In this document: positions 13,922-22,749 of the stretch, in pieces
Numbering within the stretch: position 1 is the first letter of the stretch
Layout of the letters: every line of letters starts with the position of its first letter
Assembly (NCBI GenBank): GCA_025362555.1
Contig: JANYFP010000380.1
Location: 1-46,946 of the forward strand
Direction: 5' to 3'
Length of the DNA: 46,946 bases
Source: Verrucomicrobiota bacterium
GTDB lineage: Bacteria > Verrucomicrobiota > Verrucomicrobiia > Opitutales > Opitutaceae
The notes under the pieces: model-generated
What the model was told of the DNA's origin: nothing
The model's database searches: none
Seen by the model: only the letters and a program-made list of their open reading frames with translations
Program-made: the position numbers and the translations under genes

Positions 13922-14737
13922 ATGTGGCAAAAGTTTAAAGAACAACTCCCCGCGGTCATCCTTACCGCTATTTTGGCAATCGGCGCAGCATTTTGGTTTT
14001 ACCAACAAACTGTGGCGGAACTAGCAGCAAAACAGCAGTCGGAAATCGCGGCTCTGCGTGAGCAGACCAATGCGGAAATGAAAGCCTCCGCCGAGGAAAC
14101 GCGGCGGCATATCGAGTCCGTCAATCAACTGCTCAAGGACGCTATTTCCAAGCGTCAGGCAGATGCCCTCATGACCGATGAGGAATTCGCCAAGATCAAC
14201 GCCGAGAAAGTAAATCAGCTCGCCGAAGCGATCGCGCATAAGATCCAGCCAAACAGTCCGCTGCCAAAAACACCCGAAGAAGCAGAGAAGCTCCAGAACG
14301 AGCAAGTCGACAAAGTGTCGACCCGCATGGTTGATAAAATTTCACCCATCCTGGCTGAAATGTCGAAAGATCAAAGCCTCACCCGCGAGTCCATCAACAG
14401 TTACAGTCAGCGTATCTCCGATCAAATCAGCGGTGTGCTGACCTCGGAAATGTCCCGCAATCAAGAGCTCAACTCGCAACTGCTCGCGTCACAATCGGTG
14501 GCCCAGGATTCCATGAAGCTCTCCCACGAAATCACCGCACTTTATCTGAGCAGCTTTAAGGATCAGGGCTTGATCACTCGCTTGCTCTCGCTCCCCGCTA
14601 ATGTCGTACGCGACGCCGCGAGCCTGAGTATTGTCACAAGTTCTGATCGCAAGAAAATGGAAGAGCGCCTGATCACCGAAATGAATGCGCTGGAGAAGCG
14701 TTTGGCTCAGGTGCAGGCCACCGCGCCAAAAAAGTAA
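13922..14737 (+). CDS. Single-pass membrane protein with long coiled coil
   Basis: A 271-residue protein. Residues ~10-28 are one membrane helix (LPAVILTAILAIGAAFWFY). Almost all the rest is helical and coiled-coil-like, with many Glu, Gln, Lys and Ser residues, ending in MNALEKRLAQVQATAPKK. It probably projects from the inner membrane into the periplasm or cytoplasm as a rod. No known family is recognised. A good terminator follows directly, so it is a single-gene unit or the end of one. Confidence 0.72.
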   Translation: MWQKFKEQLPAVILTAILAIGAAFWFYQQTVAELAAKQQSEIAALREQTNAEMKASAEETRRHIESVNQLLKDAISKRQADALMTDEEFAKINAEKVNQLAEAIAHKIQPNSPLPKTPEEAEKLQNEQVDKVSTRMVDKISPILAEMSKDQSLTRESINSYSQRISDQISGVLTSEMSRNQELNSQLLASQSVAQDSMKLSHEITALYLSSFKDQGLITRLLSLPANVVRDAASLSIVTSSDRKKMEERLITEMNALEKRLAQVQATAPKK

Positions 14738-14880: not shown

Positions 14881-15726
14881 TCATGCATTCACCAAGGGTC
14901 GCACCGCCTCGACGCCCACGATTACCGGTTTGGCGGAGGATAGCCCAAAAGCCGGCAGATAAATCCGGAAAGAGGAACCCTGTCCTACGACCGTGTGCAA
15001 TTGAATGAACCCTTGATGATGAGTAACGATCGCCCGAATCGTCGAAAGACCCAGACCAGACCCCTTTCCTGCTTTCTTCGTCGTAATAAACGGCTCCCAC
15101 ATTTTTGCCAGCACCGCCGGCGAAAAACCCGTCCCCGTATCATCGACCTGCAAAACCAGAAATGATCCGGCGCGAGCCGTGGGGATTTTCGCCGCCGCCG
15201 CTCCATCAAGCACACAATTTTCCGCCCGTAAACTGAGCGTCCCGCCCTGCGCCATGGCATCGCGGGCGTTCACACAAAGATTGAGCAGCACTTGGTGGAT
15301 CTGGCTGAGATTTGCATTCACCTGCCATAGATCCACCGGGAAATTTTCTTTGACGCGAATATTTCGGGGAAAAGATTCCGCAGCAAAATGCGCCACCTCC
15401 TCCAGCAACTGCTGCATCGGCACCACTTGCAACTGCCCGCCAGCACCGTCGGCATACTCGAGAATTTGCCGCACCAAGGCAGTGGCACGACCCACCGTGG
15501 TCTCGAATGAATCCAATAAATTACGCGCCGATGCATCGGTCACCGACGGTCGAAGCAGCGGGATCGCCATCTTCATCGGCGAAAGCATATTGTTCAAATC
15601 GTGAGCCACTCGGGTGGCGAGCAAGCCCATGTTTTCCAATCGTTCCAATCGGAGCAGCTCCTCGTCCGTACGCTCGGCAACCTTGGATTTACGCCGGTCC
15701 TTCGGATTATCGTCCGGATGTGACAT
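14881..15726 (-). CDS. Soluble sensor histidine kinase
   Basis: A 281-residue kinase without membrane segments or a recognisable sensor domain; only a ~25-residue charged N-terminus precedes the catalytic core. The H-box is ATRVAHDLNNMLSPM (His42), followed by the N-box LNLCVNARDAM, G1 VDDTGTGFSP, an F-box-like WEPFITTKKAG and G2 GSGLGLSTIRAI. This is the HisKA/HATPase_c type often found in NtrB-like kinases. The ATG at 15726 is four codons inside the open frame at 15738. It follows the YcaO gene by about 60 bases on the same strand and is probably in its operon. No response regulator is adjacent on its own strand, so its partner may be one of the receiver proteins encoded at 16993-21487. Confidence 0.88.
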   Translation of the reverse strand: MSHPDDNPKDRRKSKVAERTDEELLRLERLENMGLLATRVAHDLNNMLSPMKMAIPLLRPSVTDASARNLLDSFETTVGRATALVRQILEYADGAGGQLQVVPMQQLLEEVAHFAAESFPRNIRVKENFPVDLWQVNANLSQIHQVLLNLCVNARDAMAQGGTLSLRAENCVLDGAAAAKIPTARAGSFLVLQVDDTGTGFSPAVLAKMWEPFITTKKAGKGSGLGLSTIRAIVTHHQGFIQLHTVVGQGSSFRIYLPAFGLSSAKPVIVGVEAVRPLVNA

Positions 15727-15786
15727 GGAAAATTTCAATGGGAGTGGATCGGTAATTTTGTTCGGGGTGATTTAATAAAATTGCTC

Positions 15787-16674
15787 TCACCAAAAAAAAT
15801 AATCTTCCCCGCCATTAAGATAACCTTCGGACGAGGGCTTCAAGGCGAAGCGCCAAACCGTCGTGTAATCCGACCAAGGCCCCGTAACTTCCCGGTCACA
15901 GAGAAGTGAAGCCGCCGGCATCTCAGCCTGACCACCATCCTGAACCCGACGAAGAAAGAGCTCGTGCCCCGCCTGCGTCGCAAAGAATAGACTCCTTCGC
16001 TCAAAACGCTCAACCGGCTGACGATACTCTCCGACCAGCGCCGACAGCCACCAAGCGTGCAACACCCGCTCATGGCGCGCCAACTCGACCATTGCCCGCT
16101 CACAAGCCGCACCAAATGATTCTTCGGCCGCATGCCCGTAGGCATACATCCCGAAGGTGGTTCGTGAATAGGCGATCACCGTGACACCACCGAACGGGCC
16201 ATCAATCGCCACTGCGGAAACTCCCGGCCAATCCGTATCAAACAAGCGCCATCGGGCGCGGCCTTCCCACCACGATGCGAGACTAAAACGTTCCACCGCC
16301 GCCAGCATCGCGCTCCGTCGGGCTCTTCTCGCCGTCAACCCACACGCCGCCGCCATGCCCGTGGACGAAGGATCGACATCAAAAGCGAATTCATCAGCCC
16401 GGTCTGACTGCACGACCGCATCAAACGCCCAACGCTTGAGCGCTTCCGAGACCGCCTGCTGTCGGGCTACGCTGGTGACGCGATGAGTCCCTGTGCCGTC
16501 AGCATCCCCATAAAGATACTGACCACGCGGCCTCGTTAAGCCAGCGGACAAACATGCATTAACTTGAACCATTGGAAGGCCACCCACGGAGACGGTCCGG
16601 GATTCAATCGAATCCACCGGTCCACCATCCGCCGCAAGCACCTTTCGATAGCGAAAAGTAGAGAGGCTGAACAT
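15787..16674 (-). CDS. Stand-alone YcaO-like protein
   Basis: A 295-residue protein that reads as a divergent YcaO domain. YcaO enzymes use ATP to activate peptide backbone amides, making azolines, thioamides or amidines in RiPP peptides. Family landmarks can be followed in order: a GTGTHRVTSVARQQAVSEAL segment, the STGMAAACGLTARRA turn, AVERFSLASWW (family ELxERDA-like helix) and a late acidic helix ACERAMVELARHERV. Some acidic ATP-site positions differ from the usual pattern (EALKRW where E-A-I-E-R is usual; AAVERFS for ELIERDA). The C-terminus ends DYFFW and lacks the PxPxP tail of azoline-forming YcaOs. No E1-like, TfuA or dehydrogenase partner is nearby. Its start lies one base after the stop of a 66-residue peptide gene, so translation is probably coupled. 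Confidence 0.72.
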   Translation of the reverse strand: MFSLSTFRYRKVLAADGGPVDSIESRTVSVGGLPMVQVNACLSAGLTRPRGQYLYGDADGTGTHRVTSVARQQAVSEALKRWAFDAVVQSDRADEFAFDVDPSSTGMAAACGLTARRARRSAMLAAVERFSLASWWEGRARWRLFDTDWPGVSAVAIDGPFGGVTVIAYSRTTFGMYAYGHAAEESFGAACERAMVELARHERVLHAWWLSALVGEYRQPVERFERRSLFFATQAGHELFLRRVQDGGQAEMPAASLLCDREVTGPWSDYTTVWRFALKPSSEGYLNGGEDYFFW

Positions 16675-16675
16675 A

Positions 16676-16876
16676 TTACGCTAAAATAGCAGCACACGCA
16701 GGAGGGCCATCGCCAGGAGCAACTGTCGGATTACGTGCAACCCCACCCTGAATAGTCTCCTTGGCCGCAGAAGACCGGACCGTGGAAGCAACCCCACCCG
16801 CTACCACGCAAGCGAAAACTACAACAAATAGGAGGCGTAAAAGCGCTCCGAAACCGAGATGTTTTTCTTTTTTCAT
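16676..16876 (-). CDS. Small hydrophobic peptide, candidate YcaO substrate
   Basis: A 66-residue ORF encoded directly ahead of the YcaO gene (stop TAA, one base, then the YcaO ATG). It has a basic N-terminus (MKKEKHLG), a hydrophobic segment at ~11-30 (ALLRLLFVVVFACVVAGG), a polar linker, and a short tail after a Gly-Gly pair at 44-45: VARNPTVAPGDGPPACAAILA, with a single tail cysteine (Cys61). A Shine-Dalgarno-like AGGGG lies four bases before this ATG, which supports this start rather than the longer frame reaching to 17230. The layout (leader-like or signal-like front, Gly-Gly, short Pro/Gly/Cys tail, adjacent YcaO) suggests a precursor peptide. It could instead be a small membrane protein. 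No family is recognised. Confidence 0.6.
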   Translation of the reverse strand: MKKEKHLGFGALLRLLFVVVFACVVAGGVASTVRSSAAKETIQGGVARNPTVAPGDGPPACAAILA

Positions 16877-16921
16877 AGCACCCCTAGTTTCACCCAGACC
16901 TGCCAACTGACGATAGCGCTG

Positions 16922-16941
16922 ACTACCGGATTTCCGGTAGT
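16922..16941. promoter_or_regulatory. Perfect 20-bp palindrome, candidate operator
   Basis: ACTACCGGATTTCCGGTAGT: two perfect 9-bp arms around a 2-base centre. It sits in the 116-base divergent gap, centred about 55 bases before the peptide ATG and 61 bases before the hybrid-kinase ATG, so one dimeric regulator could control both sides. Length and symmetry fit LuxR/NarL-type or TetR-type sites; the NarL-type regulator at 20825-21487 is an obvious candidate. No second copy was seen in the window. Confidence 0.6.
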
Positions 16942-16951
16942 TTACGCGAAA

Positions 16952-16980
16952 TTGAAATCGCCTTTGAATTCTTCCATATT
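16952..16980 (+). promoter_or_regulatory. Possible sigma-70 promoter of the hybrid kinase gene
   Basis: TTGAAA (16952-16957), a 17-base spacer, then CATATT (16975-16980). It would start transcription only a few bases before the ATG at 16993, implying a nearly leaderless mRNA or a start codon further in. The palindrome just upstream would be positioned for activation. Confidence 0.3.
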
Positions 16981-16992
16981 CATCATTTTTGC

Positions 16993-19900
16993 ATGGGAGG
17001 GTTCGCATCTTGGCACATTCGGCACGGCCTGATTGGAAGGACTTTATTGTGTCTTTCCGGTGTTGCCGCTTTTGCTCCGCTGCTATTGGCCCAAGCTGTA
17101 CAAAAACCGCTAGTTCAATCCTTTTCAGTGGCCCAGATTGGCTCTGATGCGACGAGTTGGGTGACACGACAGGGGCCCGATGGCGTCCTTTATTTCGGAG
17201 CCGATTCATTGCTTCGTTTCGACGGTGCAACGTGGCGCCAGACGCCTATTAATGGTGCCTACGCTATGCGTGGCCTTGAGTTTGGAAAAAATGGAAAACT
17301 ATGGGCCTCGGCCATCAACGAGGTCGGTTGGTATGATCAGGAACCCTCGGGTACATGGACCTATCACTCACTCGTTTCAAAACTACCGGCCGAACACGCC
17401 AAGCTCGGTGATACTTGGAATGCCTTCGCTGAAGAAAACGGCGGGCTTTTCATTGGCGCCGAAAAAATCCTGCGCTGGAACGGAACCAAATTTCAAATCT
17501 GGTCGTTCCCGGGCGGGCGTCATTTGCAGGCGACGCGATCGGGTGAAGCTATTTACGTGCACCACTCCCCGACCGGACTCTACCTTATGACGCCGGATGG
17601 CCCACGACTAGTCATACCACAATCCGTCTTGGGCCAGCACATGGTGGTTTGGTTGGAACACACCGACCAAGGATTTTTGCTAGCGACGTCACAGGGATTG
17701 TTCAGCTTTCACGATGATCAGCTGATTCCGTACGCGCCAGAAATCGCCAATTATATCCGACAAAATGTCCTCACCTCAGCGGTGAGACTATTTGATGGTC
17801 GACTCGCCCTCGGGACTTATCGCGGAGGGGTCGTGATACTAAATGCCGCTGGGGGCGTGGACCAATTCTTAACCGAAAAAGAAGGTCTCCCAACTAATTC
17901 TGTTTTTTCCCTATTCGAAGACCAAGAGCACGGACTCTGGGCGACGTCCGATTTCACTATTTTCCGCCTGACGATTGACCCGGCCTCCCTCGTCTTCAGT
18001 CACACTATCGGACTGCCAAATCAGCCGATTATCAAAATCGCTCGCAATCACGACCGAATCACTTTTGCAACCGGGCATAGCCTTTCCGAACTGGCCTCAC
18101 CGGTAGGGGATTTCCATGCGGTTGAATCACCCGCCATGGATATAATGGATCTCCAAGCCACCCCTCAAGGCATGCTGGTCGCTGCCGCGGGAGGCATCAC
18201 GAAAATCTCCGAGGGGAAATCGACCTCGTTTCTTTCCGGGCTAAAAAACGCGTTCCTCGTTAAAGCCTCACGAAATTGGCCGGACAAAATACTAGTCTCC
18301 GATGGTTCCAGCGTTTCACTCGCGGATTCGACCGGTCACTTGAGACTTCTCGTCCAGCATCTCCCCGACATAATTAATTCCATCGCGGAAGACGACCAAG
18401 GTCGACTTTGGATGGGAACTGCGGCCAGCGCGATTTTACTGGCGACCCCGACCGACACCGCGCCAGTCGAAGCAATTTTCGCAGGTCCAAACTTCGGTCT
18501 GCCAGACAACTCCGGACTTGGCCGGGTCGCACCAGGAGCTAACGGAGAAGTCTTCGCAATCACGTCAACCGGCGGTTGGTTACTCAGCCCCAAGACAACT
18601 CAGTTTGTCGCGATTGAGAATTTCCCCGCATGGAGCGTCAACGCGGTGTCGGACGTTCTCCCGGACGGAAGCTTCTGGATCGTTCATCCCGGCACCGAAA
18701 CGCGCGCCGCAAGTGTCGCGCGCATCTCGGTTCAAGGCGGTCACGCCATCTGGCAGCCCCACTCCGTTGACGGACTGTGGGAAATCGGTTTGCCGCAGTG
18801 CATCTTCGCCGAAACCGCAGCCAACTCCGAGACGCACCTCTGGATTGGCGGCACGAGCGGTCTGTTACGCAACATCGTCGCCCACGGACCGCTCGCGCCC
18901 CCTCCCCGCGCCCCTCTCTTGCGCACGCTGGCCCGCAGCGCCAAACTCGAAACCCTGCAAGCGGTCACTCTACCACTGCCGTATTCAACCCGCGCTATCG
19001 TCTTTGATTTTGCCGCGCCTGAATTCGCGCACCGCCCCGCCCTTCACCTTGAAACCATGCTTGATGGCGTGGACCAATCGTGGATGCCGACCAGCACATC
19101 AACCCGCCGCGAACTCACCGCTCTCCGCGACGGCCGCTACACCTTCCGTGTCCGCGTCGTCGCCGAAACGGGCGTCAGCAGTCCGGCCAGCGTCAGTCAT
19201 TTTGAAATCAATCCGCCTTGGTGGCGAACCGGCACCGCCATCCTCGCCGCACTGCTCGCGCTCATTCCCTCCGGCTACGGACTCTATCGCTGGCGCGTCC
19301 GCCTCCTCCGCCAACACAACGCTGCGCTCGAACAAAAAGTGCTGGAACGCACCGCCCAGTTGGAACGGGCCAGCGCCGCCAAGACGCAGTTCGTCGCCAA
19401 CATGAGCCACGATATTCGCAATCCGCTCAACGGCATTGTGGGTCTGGCCCTCGCCCTCGAAGACACGTGGCTTGACGCCAAACAACGCGAGCTGGTCTTC
19501 ACGCTGCGCGAATGCACCACGTACCTCTCAACCCTCGTGGATGACGTCCTCGATTTTGCGACCATCGAAGCCGGCCGCGTGGAGTTGAGACCTGGCCCCT
19601 TTTCTCCCGCGGAACTGCTGCGCTCCATCGCCGCCATGTTCAAAATGGACGCCATCGCAAGCGGTGCCGTTCTCCACGTCGAGGCTGATTCAAAATTGCC
19701 TGCGGCCTACATCGGCGACGCCGGAAGGATTCAACAGATTCTGGTCAACTACGTCAGTAACGCCCTGAAATATTCCGGCGGCCCGGTTACCCTCACCGCC
19801 AGCATTCCCGCTGATGCGCCCGAAGAAATTGAATTCTCCGTGGCAGATGAGGGCCCGGGCATCAGCGAGGAAGGTCAGCGAGCACTCTTCACCAAATTTT

Positions 19901-20871
19901 CCCGCCTCACTGATGCCCAATCCAAGGAAATAACCGGCACCGGCCTGGGCCTCGCCTCCTGCCGCTTACTCGCCGGATTGATGTGCGGCTCGGTCGGCGT
20001 GCGCAGCAGTCCCGGTCATGGTGCCCGGTTTTTCCTGCGCCTGCCCCTTGACGTATTCCCCATCCCGACCGCGGACTCAGCGACCACGTCCGGCAAAGTT
20101 CCGATCGTGCCAGACTGTACTGTGCTGCTGGTCGAGGACACCAACTACAATGCGATGGCCGCCACGGCGGTCTTGAACAAATTCGGCCTCCCCTGCGAAC
20201 GCGCCTGCACCGGCGCCGAAGCCGTGCGCCTCTTCACGGCAAAACGCCACAACCTCATTTTACTCGATCGCAACTTGCCGGACATGGACGGAACCGAAGT
20301 GGCCCGTCAGATCCGCGCCCTCGAAGCCAACGGCCCGCGCACCATCATTCTCGCCGTCACCGCGTTCTGCACCCTGGAGGACCGCGCGCTTTGCCTGAAC
20401 GCCGGAATGGATGCGTTTGTCGGCAAGCCGCTCACTCCGCAAAAACTGCGGCGCGTGCTGACCGCTGCGGGGCGGCGCCATCTCGCCGCTGCCTCCATGC
20501 ACCTCTCGCCGGAAGCTCCCTCGGCCGGAGTTGATGTGTCACTCCTCGAATACCTTTCAGACGGTACCGACCAAGGGCTGAACCGGCAAATCGAACTGTT
20601 CCTCGCCGCTCTCGGTGAAGCCGAAAAACAACTTGAACGGGCCGCTCAAACCACCGACTTCAAACTTCTGGGCGACGCTGCCCATGGCGTCCTTTCCCAC
20701 GCTCGCCTGGTCGGCAGCGCTTCGCTCGCGACCGCCGCCGCCGGACTCCAGGACGCCGCACTCGCGAAAGACCAAGAGGCCTTTAACAGCCACCTCGCCC
20801 GGGCTCGCCGTGAAATCGAATCCCTCACGGCAATAGTTCGCCGCCATCCTGGCGCAGAGCGGACAGCGTAA
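16993..20871 (+). CDS. Hybrid sensor kinase: propeller sensor, Y_Y_Y, HisKA, HATPase, receiver, HPt
   Basis: A 1292-residue one-protein phosphorelay. A signal peptide or anchor (RTLLCLSGVAAFAPLLLAQA) is followed by a ~600-residue periplasmic sensor built of two-component-regulator propeller repeats (for example DGVLYFGADSLLRFDG, LWATSDFTIFRL, DQGRLWMGT). Then come a Y_Y_Y-like beta domain (TALRDGRYTFRVRV), a membrane helix (~750-770, AILAALLALIPSGYGLY), HisKA with FVANMSHDIRNPLNG (His806), HATPase_c (NYVSNALKYS, DEGPGIS, GTGLGLASC), a receiver (LLDRNLPDMDG, Asp1092) and a C-terminal HPt domain (AHGVLSHARLVGSASL, probable His1231). Such proteins often sense glycans, but this one is divergent from the peptide-YcaO genes. 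The sensor half looks less GC-rich than the kinase half. Its last 47 bases overlap the 3' end of the opposing response regulator gene. Confidence 0.93.
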   Translation: MGGFASWHIRHGLIGRTLLCLSGVAAFAPLLLAQAVQKPLVQSFSVAQIGSDATSWVTRQGPDGVLYFGADSLLRFDGATWRQTPINGAYAMRGLEFGKNGKLWASAINEVGWYDQEPSGTWTYHSLVSKLPAEHAKLGDTWNAFAEENGGLFIGAEKILRWNGTKFQIWSFPGGRHLQATRSGEAIYVHHSPTGLYLMTPDGPRLVIPQSVLGQHMVVWLEHTDQGFLLATSQGLFSFHDDQLIPYAPEIANYIRQNVLTSAVRLFDGRLALGTYRGGVVILNAAGGVDQFLTEKEGLPTNSVFSLFEDQEHGLWATSDFTIFRLTIDPASLVFSHTIGLPNQPIIKIARNHDRITFATGHSLSELASPVGDFHAVESPAMDIMDLQATPQGMLVAAAGGITKISEGKSTSFLSGLKNAFLVKASRNWPDKILVSDGSSVSLADSTGHLRLLVQHLPDIINSIAEDDQGRLWMGTAASAILLATPTDTAPVEAIFAGPNFGLPDNSGLGRVAPGANGEVFAITSTGGWLLSPKTTQFVAIENFPAWSVNAVSDVLPDGSFWIVHPGTETRAASVARISVQGGHAIWQPHSVDGLWEIGLPQCIFAETAANSETHLWIGGTSGLLRNIVAHGPLAPPPRAPLLRTLARSAKLETLQAVTLPLPYSTRAIVFDFAAPEFAHRPALHLETMLDGVDQSWMPTSTSTRRELTALRDGRYTFRVRVVAETGVSSPASVSHFEINPPWWRTGTAILAALLALIPSGYGLYRWRVRLLRQHNAALEQKVLERTAQLERASAAKTQFVANMSHDIRNPLNGIVGLALALEDTWLDAKQRELVFTLRECTTYLSTLVDDVLDFATIEAGRVELRPGPFSPAELLRSIAAMFKMDAIASGAVLHVEADSKLPAAYIGDAGRIQQILVNYVSNALKYSGGPVTLTASIPADAPEEIEFSVADEGPGISEEGQRALFTKFSRLTDAQSKEITGTGLGLASCRLLAGLMCGSVGVRSSPGHGARFFLRLPLDVFPIPTADSATTSGKVPIVPDCTVLLVEDTNYNAMAATAVLNKFGLPCERACTGAEAVRLFTAKRHNLILLDRNLPDMDGTEVARQIRALEANGPRTIILAVTAFCTLEDRALCLNAGMDAFVGKPLTPQKLRRVLTAAGRRHLAAASMHLSPEAPSAGVDVSLLEYLSDGTDQGLNRQIELFLAALGEAEKQLERAAQTTDFKLLGDAAHGVLSHARLVGSASLATAAAGLQDAALAKDQEAFNSHLARARREIESLTAIVRRHPGAERTA

Positions 20872-21487
20872 ATCCGTGGTCGCGGGCATACCGCACCAAC
20901 TCAAGCGTACCATTCAAATCCAATTTCTTCAGAATATTAAACCGGTGTTTCGCCACCGTGGGCTCGGCTAATTCCAAGCGCTTCGCAATTTCCCAGTCCT
21001 GCAACGGCTCACCAATCAAAGCGAGAATCGTCCGCTCCCGGTTGGTCAGCAGCTTGTCGAATGAAACGGGGTCACCTTGCCGGTTTTTTTTCAGCCGGAG
21101 AAATTCCTCCGAGAAATACGTCAGGCCTTGACTCACAGCCGTGATGGCCTTCCTCAACACCGCCACGGTGTTCGTGTTTTTATCCACGAACCCATGGACC
21201 CGGGCCTTTTCCGCCCGGAAAACCGTATAGTCGTCACAATGCGAAGAGAGCACCAAAACTCGAATCTCCGGTGCAGCCAGACGCACCGCGTCCACCACCC
21301 CGAAACCGTCCAGTTTCGGCAAGTGCAAATCGAGCAACACCAAATCCGGCTGCGTCCGTAAAACCAATTGCACCGCCGCCAGTCCATCGGTCGCCTCGCC
21401 CACGATTTCATGCCGCAAGTCTCTCGCGCACACCTTGCGCAGAACTTCGCGAAACATCGCGTGATCTTCAACGATGACGATCTTCAC
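20825..21487 (-). CDS. NarL/LuxR-family response regulator
   Basis: A 220-residue DNA-binding regulator: receiver domain (acidic pair E7-D8, phospho-acceptor Asp53 in LLDLHLPKLDG, conserved Lys in GFVDKNT) and a C-terminal LuxR-type helix-turn-helix (LTNRERTILALIGEPLQDWEIAKRLELAEPTVAKHR pattern, positions ~140-175). GTG at 21487 gives the canonical receiver start VKIVIVEDHAMF; the longer frame to 21649 adds an implausible 54-residue extension. It is convergent with, and overlaps by 47 bases, the hybrid kinase gene, so it is a likely phosphotransfer partner of that kinase's HPt or of the soluble kinase at 14881. It is a candidate binder of the palindrome at 16922. Confidence 0.9.
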   Translation of the reverse strand: MKIVIVEDHAMFREVLRKVCARDLRHEIVGEATDGLAAVQLVLRTQPDLVLLDLHLPKLDGFGVVDAVRLAAPEIRVLVLSSHCDDYTVFRAEKARVHGFVDKNTNTVAVLRKAITAVSQGLTYFSEEFLRLKKNRQGDPVSFDKLLTNRERTILALIGEPLQDWEIAKRLELAEPTVAKHRFNILKKLDLNGTLELVRYARDHGFTLSALRQDGGELLP

Positions 21488-21630
21488 CTCTGCTACGAAA
21501 CGGAAATCCTGTCGCGGTGCAAGCCTCGTGCGACTCACGGGCCAGCAGCCGACAAAAAAATTGGCCATAATCCATTTTGTTTTGTCCCCACCCGCTTTGC
21601 CGGACCACACTTTCCCTACCCCGCCCACCG

Positions 21631-22749
21631 ATGACCGCCGCCATCGCAATTTCGCCTACTAGCGCCCGCCGCTTTATGCGGCGCGCCTTGCTACTCGACC
21701 AGCCGGCACCCGATATCGCCACGGCCCTCGCGCATCACGCCTACATTCAAATCGATCCGATCAACATCACCGGGCGCATGCATGATCTTATCCTGCGCAA
21801 CCGGGTAATTAGTTATCGCGAAGGCGATCTGATGCGGCATCTGCACGGTCACGACCAACCCCTGCTCGCCGCCCAACGCACCGCCTTCGAACATCACCTG
21901 CCCTCCACTGGAATCCTCGTCGCCTTCCCGCTCGCCGCCTGGCCGCACCTCCTCACCGCCAACGCCGCGCGCAGTCGCCGCACGGGAGCGTGGTCAGGCC
22001 AACTAACCGCCCGTGAACGTAAACTTTCCCAACACGTCCTGAAAGAAATCGCCTCCCGCGGCCCGCTGCGCTCCGCCGACTTCCAAGACGAACGCCGCGC
22101 CTCCCAACAAGTCTGGGGCACCATGCGACTCGTCAAATCCGCGATGCAAAAACTTTTCTTTCACGGCCAACTCCTGATTGCCGGCCGTACTGCGGACAAC
22201 CACCGGCTCTACGATCTCCCCGAACGGGTTCTACCCAAAGCCATCCTTCGCCTGGCCGCGCCACCCGCAGACGAAACCACGCGTTGGCTCATTCTAACCT
22301 CCCTGCGCCAACGCCGCCTCGTGCCCCTCAAAAAGAAGGAGCTGCCACTCGTCGAGGATCTCGTCCAAGCGGTAAAAATCGACGGCTGCTCAACTCTGTA
22401 CTGCCTGCGCGACGATCTGCCACTATTCGAATTGCCGCCGACTATCCCTGAACGAACCGCGCCCCTTCACCTCCTTGCGCCCCTCGACCCGCTCATCTAT
22501 GATCGTCGCGTTACCTCCGCCCTGTGGGATTTCGACTACACTTGGGAAGTATACACCCCACCCGCCAAACGTCAGCGCGGTTATTATGCGCTGCCCGTTC
22601 TCGTCGACACCGAGCTCATCGGCCACATCGACCCCAAAGCAGATCGGACGAAGAAAAAACTCCACATCGTATCCCGCCGCATCCGTCGTGGCCACAAAGT
22701 ATCCCCCGCCGTGAAAGCGCTCGCACTCTGGCTCGGACTCAAGCCGTAA
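21631..22749 (+). CDS. YcaQ/AlkX-like winged-helix DNA glycosylase family protein
   Basis: A 372-residue protein of the winged-helix (HTH_42) family whose Escherichia coli member YcaQ unhooks DNA interstrand crosslinks. The family signature QxD is present as IQIDPINITGRMHDLILRNR near residue 45, where Gln and Asp are the catalytic pair. Later segments also fit: ERTAPLHLLAPLDPLIYDRR, FDYTWEVYTPPAKRQRGYYALPVL and IGHIDPKADR. ATG at 21631 is chosen over the upstream opening at 21577 because the conserved ISPTSARRFMRRALLLD helix follows closely. It is divergent from the response regulator and has no operon partner. Confidence 0.87.
   Translation: MTAAIAISPTSARRFMRRALLLDQPAPDIATALAHHAYIQIDPINITGRMHDLILRNRVISYREGDLMRHLHGHDQPLLAAQRTAFEHHLPSTGILVAFPLAAWPHLLTANAARSRRTGAWSGQLTARERKLSQHVLKEIASRGPLRSADFQDERRASQQVWGTMRLVKSAMQKLFFHGQLLIAGRTADNHRLYDLPERVLPKAILRLAAPPADETTRWLILTSLRQRRLVPLKKKELPLVEDLVQAVKIDGCSTLYCLRDDLPLFELPPTIPERTAPLHLLAPLDPLIYDRRVTSALWDFDYTWEVYTPPAKRQRGYYALPVLVDTELIGHIDPKADRTKKKLHIVSRRIRRGHKVSPAVKALALWLGLKP

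Follow-up and report, generated by a model that had tools for sequence, protein, structure and literature searches.

A putative YcaO-modified peptide system paired with a propeller hybrid kinase in Opitutales, and its apparently altered copy in one Verrucomicrobiota genome

Peptide autoinduction through two-component systems is known from nisin and Agr. The hybrid two-component systems (HTCS) of Bacteroidetes join a propeller, HisKA, HATPase and a receiver in one protein and lie beside glycan genes; in classical HTCS the same polypeptide also contains an AraC DNA-binding domain. Among ribosomally synthesized and post-translationally modified peptides (RiPPs), the bufferins, which are MNIO RiPPs, combine a Sec-type signal peptide and a Cys core in the precursor. 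In the streptamidine family, each precursor has one to three of the motifs (PMC8442711, PMC6511847). The locus described here lies in a 46,946-nucleotide stretch (contig JANYFP010000380.1, positions 1 to 46,946, assembly GCA_025362555.1) of a Verrucomicrobiota bacterium of the Opitutaceae, the whole of which is called the window below, and contains a small peptide gene next to a YcaO-like gene. Comparison with its relatives leads us to favour, with some reserve, a conserved Opitutales peptide system, that is, a new YcaO RiPP under its own two-component system and possibly a self-sensed signal. Its layout is that of a LuxR-type regulator and a propeller hybrid kinase opposite a putative precursor peptide and YcaO.

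Fifty-six loci were compared (the window, L022, L023, L025-L044 and L090-L122), L034 and L044 being damaged or doubtful. Among 57 related genomes the window YcaO protein is matched in 19 (its own included), and within the order in 41 of 372 genomes, covering 26 of the 100 genera in the order sample. A phylum sample of 288 genomes gave 11 with a match, every one of them listed as same order or closer; YcaO-bearing genomes number 49 across all samples together. Three additional matches came from named contigs, one of them apparently identical to the L002 contig, and L024, apparently the same contig as L002/L025, was counted once. The genes of the locus in the window are the following:

16676..16876, minus strand: precursor-like peptide gene, 66 aa, with comparable open reading frames (ORFs) in the equivalent position in relatives
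15787..16674, minus strand: minimal YcaO-domain protein, 295 aa, with E80K, E125A and P111C relative to the family
16924..16939, no strand: palindrome TACCGGATTTCCGGTA, an operator-like ACC-N8-GGT site about 62 bases 5' of the peptide ATG
16993..20871, plus strand: divergent hybrid histidine kinase, 1292 aa, opposite the peptide gene
20825..21649, minus strand: response regulator with receiver and GerE/LuxR helix-turn-helix (HTH), start uncertain
14881..15738, minus strand: soluble HisKA/HATPase histidine kinase, 285 aa, accessory and non-conserved

A sequence-only reading of this DNA had picked out a small ORF with a ribosome site, ending one base before a YcaO-like gene and followed some 60 bases later by a soluble kinase, and had noted a Gly-Gly pair at 44-45 and a single Cys in the tail of the peptide. 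These features were all recovered. AGGGG lies ahead of the peptide ATG, the peptide stop is one base short of the YcaO ATG at 16674 (minus strand), and the soluble kinase ORF, which opens with TTG, has an ATG four codons inside that is 60 bases past the YcaO stop. C61 is the only Cys of the tail, C23 lies within the hydrophobic front, and another Gly-Gly is found at 27-28. Because relatives have a comparable ORF in this position, the peptide/YcaO arrangement in the window is, on comparative grounds, more than chance. The window peptide looks like a diverged copy, with the tail GDGPPACAAILA and without the post-leader Asp-Pro motif.

A precursor-like ORF was picked upstream of YcaO in all 56 loci, at a distance of at most 50 bases in 36, of 51-110 in nine and further away in 11, the precursor locus of L044 being broken; presence of the small ORF beside close YcaO homologues, a point set beforehand, was observed. 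The leader is hydrophobic, with a mean Kyte-Doolittle value of at least 1.6 over 12 residues, in 43/56. An Asp-Pro/Ser motif stands past the leader in 28/56, and a short tail follows, usually with a Cys. Core statistics were obtained from 51 of the 56 precursors, after exclusion of the window, L041 and L106 (changed glutamates, see below), of L044, whose locus is broken, and of L034, which lies at a contig edge and has no Cys in its reading frame. The core contains a Cys in 48 of these 51; the last Cys is preceded by Pro in 25 of the 48, and a further Cys stands at -4 in 15. In five short precursors (39-40 aa), aligned by eye without gaps, one position is occupied by Cys (L110, L116) or Thr (L107, L111, L114). 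Tandem cores occur in six loci, with five copies in L030, four in L039 and three each in L037, L043, L101 and L115, and these point to the product. Differences between copies are almost all synonymous (proportion of synonymous differences, pS, 0.71-0.96 vs proportion of nonsynonymous differences, pN, 0.00-0.04; the units were chosen by exact match to an amino-acid pattern, a choice biased towards low pN, and no imperfect copies were seen in those precursors). Whole-precursor dN/dS over nine pairs of relatives was 0.08-0.52. Purifying selection on the peptide is thus seen in the precursors of relatives, the window's own peptide not being testable. Tandem cores, selection and the Cys/Thr exchange therefore argue for a translated peptide with a conserved core and Cys/Thr chemistry, and the small ORF of the family would be a precursor with a leader and a conserved core beside its modifying enzyme, the window peptide being atypical. 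The multi-core precursors of L043, L101 and L115 lie 174-256 bases 5' of YcaO, not adjacent to it. Searches of six precursors against Pfam and NCBIfam gave no match over the cut-off, the Cys-rich repeat model TIGR04114 reaching 19.8 bits with the L115 precursor (cut-off 20). An Rfam search had no match at gathering thresholds.

The identification of the adjacent gene as YcaO-like was upheld by its predicted fold. By sequence, the window protein reaches 19.2 bits with the Pfam YcaO family PF02624, under the cut-off of 25.7; in an alignment of 55 members (L044 left out), 50 match Pfam YcaO at E<=0.01, the best at 9e-10. The AF2 model of the window protein has a pLDDT of 93 and a pTM of 0.90. Its top Foldseek match, and the sole one at E<=0.001, is the M. 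kandleri YcaO 6ci7 (E 4.6e-7). In VIA the Z values were 18.2 for McbD, 17.1 for M. kandleri YcaO, 16.5 for the heterocyclase 4v1t and 13.1 for E. coli YcaO, and the top 14 rows, with Z 9.8-18.2, were all YcaO, heterocyclase or McbD chains, the first non-YcaO chain appearing at Z 6.2. The modelled fold is clearly that of YcaO. A PDB sequence profile search with the enzyme did not find YcaO and returned two weak unrelated matches (E 0.15 and 0.97), and NCBIfam gave at best a weak SagD-family match (E 0.073). Searched against its own genome the window protein matched itself alone. PF02624 found no second YcaO there; it missed the window copy as well and is therefore blind to such divergent YcaO proteins. 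TfuA (PF07812) was found in none of the 40 YcaO-bearing genomes searched, out of 49, with a profile that matched 1 of 14 control genomes. In 23 loci, no E1/ThiF partner or dehydrogenase lying within 4.5 kb was common beyond close relatives, no ThiF or dehydrogenase profile search having been made. A YFFW-like C-terminal motif is present in most members and absent in the rows shown of the L117-L122 group.

The family carries ExxER twice, and E80 and E125 are each kept in 53 of the 54 members other than the window. A weak hhalign match (probability 21%, E 0.0011) pairs E125 with E199 of E. coli YcaO, and E80 was matched to E78 by motif; from E. coli YcaO, glutamates of this type are presumably ATP/Mg ligands. 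Where 53 or 54 of the 54 relatives share a residue, the window departs with K in place of E80, A in place of E125 and C in place of P111. Other losses among E77, E80, E125, E128 and E197 are restricted to L041 (G030: E80A, E128K, E197A) and L106 (G201: E125A), and at all three loci the peptide is unusual. The Asp-Pro motif seen in the nearest relatives is missing from the window peptide, as it is from half of all precursors; the L106 peptide has no Cys, and that of L041 repeats PPGVPP(C/R)PGGGIIIK. The L041 and L106 peptides share a PP...GIIIK / GDIIIR type of tail beside a YcaO without catalytic-type glutamates. Terminal branches are long as well: for YcaO 0.358 in the window vs 0.073 in its sister, and 0.88 in L041 and 0.69 in L106 vs about 0.1 in L040, L099 and L100; for the kinase 0.259 in the window vs 0.153, with long kinase branches in L041 and L106 too. 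Lost glutamates, fast branch and unusual peptide therefore indicate that the window copy has probably departed from the chemistry of its ancestors, either through decay or through a change to a peptide that is not modified. We consider it quite likely that the enzyme no longer performs the ancestral ATP-dependent reaction and that the peptide is now no typical substrate. Hence the earlier proposal that the peptide is the YcaO substrate is supported across the family, but in the window itself the enzyme has lost near-invariant glutamates, so that the peptide may not be modified.

The second conserved component is the divergent hybrid kinase, about 1290 aa in the window, which was detected by tblastn in 54/56 loci; the two misses, L034 and L121, end at contig edges, with 282 and 523 bases of upstream sequence. 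As an ORF longer than 700 aa it appears in 49/56, with lengths of 951-1408 aa. The kinase is split over two frames in L092, L093 and L112, escaped the ORF filter in L100 despite a one-frame match, and is interrupted by the contig end in L022. In the window kinase Reg_prop, HisKA, HATPase_c and a receiver are over the Pfam cut-off, and Y_Y_Y and Hpt under it; no HTH was among the Pfam matches up to E 1, the C-terminus consisting of the receiver and the weak Hpt match. By its apparent topology the propeller would be periplasmic. A FastTree analysis with 28 paralogues from four genomes placed 48 locus kinases together with one paralogue inside, namely the short kinase at contig C55 of the window's own genome; the grouping requires 2 changes vs 22.8 in shuffles (0/500). 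The LuxR-type regulator lies beside the kinase in 40/56 loci, the flank being too short in five; in the window it is convergent with the kinase, whose 3' end overlaps the regulator gene. The soluble kinase type is found 3' of YcaO in 9/56. The earlier suggestion that local kinases read the product stays plausible and unproven, but the divergent hybrid is the more likely reader, not the soluble type.

The third component is the ACC-N8-GGT site, found between -112 and -45 relative to the precursor start in 27/56 loci. Random windows of the same loci gave a mean of 0.91 (maximum 6) and full shuffles 1.25; these null sets supersede a simpler shuffle (expectation 10.5 at spacer 8) that mixed too little. 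Other spacers from 4 to 12 gave 1-3, with a clear excess at spacer 8 alone. Positions cluster near -62, -85 and -106, that is, 21-22 bases apart. In the own genome TACCGGAWWTCCGGTA has four exact sites and ten at up to 2 mismatches, the backward control giving one. The adjacent regulator would bind this site. Hybrid kinase, regulator and palindrome lay outside the module as the sequence-only reading had listed its parts. Operator-like palindromes also occur in own-genome contigs C258, C270 and C204 (L056, L057 and L058; exact, exact and one mismatch), 83-164 bases 5' of three paralogous-looking genes, which may also be controlled by this regulator or by a sister of it; the L056 gene, the one scanned, has no Pfam match at E 0.01. 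Contig C53 (L055) has two more sites, at 1967 (exact) and 3662 (one mismatch); nearby are a gene of GH20 type, an ORF resembling a lipoprotein and a small ORF of membrane type.

Further information came from genomes in which the gene pair is absent. At matching places, defined by shared neighbours on one or both sides as read from ORF lists, precursor and YcaO are both missing in six cases: G008, G003, G005, G007, G002 and own-genome C55. Only a kinase of 594-609 aa without propeller is left in the last four (G005 and G007 lying near contig starts), and the 49 long kinase ORFs of the YcaO loci are all longer than that. Two lineages without precursor and YcaO are also without the kinase propeller. 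In a quick tree with weak forks, which cannot tell loss from gain, four changes were counted with the distant G025 kinase (L197), which is too distant to count, giving three or four events for the six genomes. Eleven genomes of the genus have no YcaO; two of them have the full kinase, three the short one, and the other six showed no match of that strength among the best 25 candidates per genome. A kinase clade found solely with YcaO was rejected because of G008, G003 and the short forms. The joint absences therefore indicate that precursor and YcaO are tightly coupled, and the propeller loosely. At C55 (L156, 4767-6596) the second kinase of the same clade, with its propeller missing, stands at the pilC-like locus that holds the RiPP genes in other members of the genus, and an ACC-N8-GGT remains beside it.

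Two neighbouring observations concern the flanks. In L031, L032, L036, L038 and L039, from the window's genus, a gene cluster lies 3' of YcaO, its member in L038 being T2SSF/pilC-like. At 13922-14737 the window encodes a 271-aa protein of helical look with one N-terminal membrane-like segment and no Pfam match over the cut-off, which adjoins the locus in three close relatives too.

These components can be assembled into a mechanism of steps of unequal strength. The upstream ORF is very probably the YcaO substrate, a RiPP precursor whose leader is hydrophobic and often signal-like and whose core is short. For the exact modification of the core we infer, with even chances, that YcaO, acting without TfuA, would cyclodehydrate its Cys to an azoline, often within x-P-C and with Thr taking the place of Cys in some lineages. 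Position and conservation make it likely that the hybrid kinase and regulator control the operon via the site before the precursor. More tentatively, the matured peptide could be exported and sensed by the kinase propeller, leading to positive feedback or cell-cell signalling. In its fullest form the proposal would describe exported YcaO-modified peptide pheromones with 1-5 short cores of the x-P-C type, read by the propeller of a kinase that in turn activates the precursor through ACC-N8-GGT, while in some lineages the peptide would have become unmodified and YcaO a pseudoenzyme; so complete a scheme we regard as doubtful.

Several observations weigh against a self-sensed YcaO RiPP. Precursors and their start codons were chosen by eye from all upstream ORFs; an AxA-like, signal-type cleavage motif is found in only 37/56; and Cys also occurs in 37/51 and 30/51 of the tails read in the other two frames, so that its presence alone is weak evidence. 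In two of the three glutamate-loss loci (the window and L041) the tail still has a Cys, and R129 (L117-L122) and R200 (L101, L113 and L043, the last labelled L019 in the alignment) vary though the Cys peptides there are ordinary. The site is missing from -112 to -45 in 29/56 loci. The regulator is on the YcaO side in five loci and was not found despite enough flank in six (L041, L044, L102, L111, L114 and L116). Kinase and YcaO distances correlate (r 0.69), which may reflect vertical descent alone. Two further points, that propeller hybrid kinases elsewhere sense glycans and that G008 and G003 keep the full propeller kinase without precursor and YcaO, also agree with a RiPP of antimicrobial, metal-binding or other effector role, whose production the kinase pair merely regulates by another cue, e.g. 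a glycan. The paired core Cys would suit a metal ligand in that case. Yet no immunity, transport, maturation or catabolic gene is widely common in the flanks of the 23 loci, and the two lineages without the gene pair have also no propeller, so that an effector role appears possible and rather improbable.

For the window itself, the module might be a live variant in which a pseudoenzyme YcaO and an unmodified peptide still signal. All window ORFs are intact, the YcaO of window and L025 differ by pN 0.20 vs pS 0.75 (saturated), and L041, whose enzyme is similarly altered, keeps two peptide repeats with 10 synonymous differences and 1 nonsynonymous one (Cys to Arg); the long window branches, however, are as expected under relaxed constraint, and we think this variant unlikely. 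Modification of another cellular protein by YcaO, with the small ORF as an accessory secreted peptide only, would fit the annotation of E. coli YcaO as accessory factor of the ribosomal protein S12 methylthiotransferase and the want of a conserved partner gene. Non-RiPP roles of YcaO in archaea and Proteobacteria are indicated in one paper (PMC8442711). Such a role is hard to reconcile with the tandem conserved cores, the Cys/Thr exchange, the joint absence of precursor and YcaO, and the unusual peptides where glutamates changed, and is most improbable. A new YcaO RiPP under its own two-component system is retained on these grounds as the favoured explanation.

Such a system would be a minimal two-gene RiPP pathway tied to one sensor-regulator pair over many genera of a phylum that has received little study. 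Through it one can test whether propeller hybrid kinases, known to sense glycans, read peptides too, and lineages without the catalytic-type glutamates, without precursor and YcaO, or without the propeller provide natural knock-outs. If the pheromone interpretation were true, this would be, to our knowledge, the first peptide quorum-type signal of Verrucomicrobiota. Among the open-licence papers listed in the literature searches, judged by title and abstract start, none described YcaO peptides in Opitutales or YcaO with propeller kinases. The YcaO RiPP kind is known; the composition, the minimal gene set and the regulatory pairing appear new.

Compared with standalone-YcaO RiPPs such as bottromycin and streptamidine, the Opitutales loci likewise have an unfused YcaO and a short precursor nearby, but they differ in the signal-like leader, in having no widely conserved maturation or transport gene in the 23 flanks, in the propeller hybrid kinase opposite, in the phylum and in an unrelated core. 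With the linear azol(in)e-containing peptides (LAPs, or thiazole/oxazole-modified microcins, TOMMs, of the microcin B17 type) they share an enzyme fold closest to McbD and a Cys/Thr core suited to azolines; unlike them, they show no conserved partner or dehydrogenase gene within the flanks of the 23 loci, and most members have the YFFW-like end. YcaO-TfuA thioamide RiPPs are set apart by the TfuA that the 40 genomes searched do not have. The signal-type leader and Cys core resemble those of bufferins, whereas YcaO takes the place of MNIO, a two-component pairing is added and any metal link would be hypothetical. Like Bacteroidetes HTCS, the window kinase joins propeller, HisKA, HATPase and receiver, but in contrast to classical HTCS it is accompanied by a separate LuxR-type regulator and by two RiPP genes in place of glycan genes. 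Finally, as in nisin and Agr, precursor, modifying enzyme, sensor kinase and regulator are brought together in one locus, here with YcaO chemistry and a propeller sensor through which the peptide itself would be sensed.

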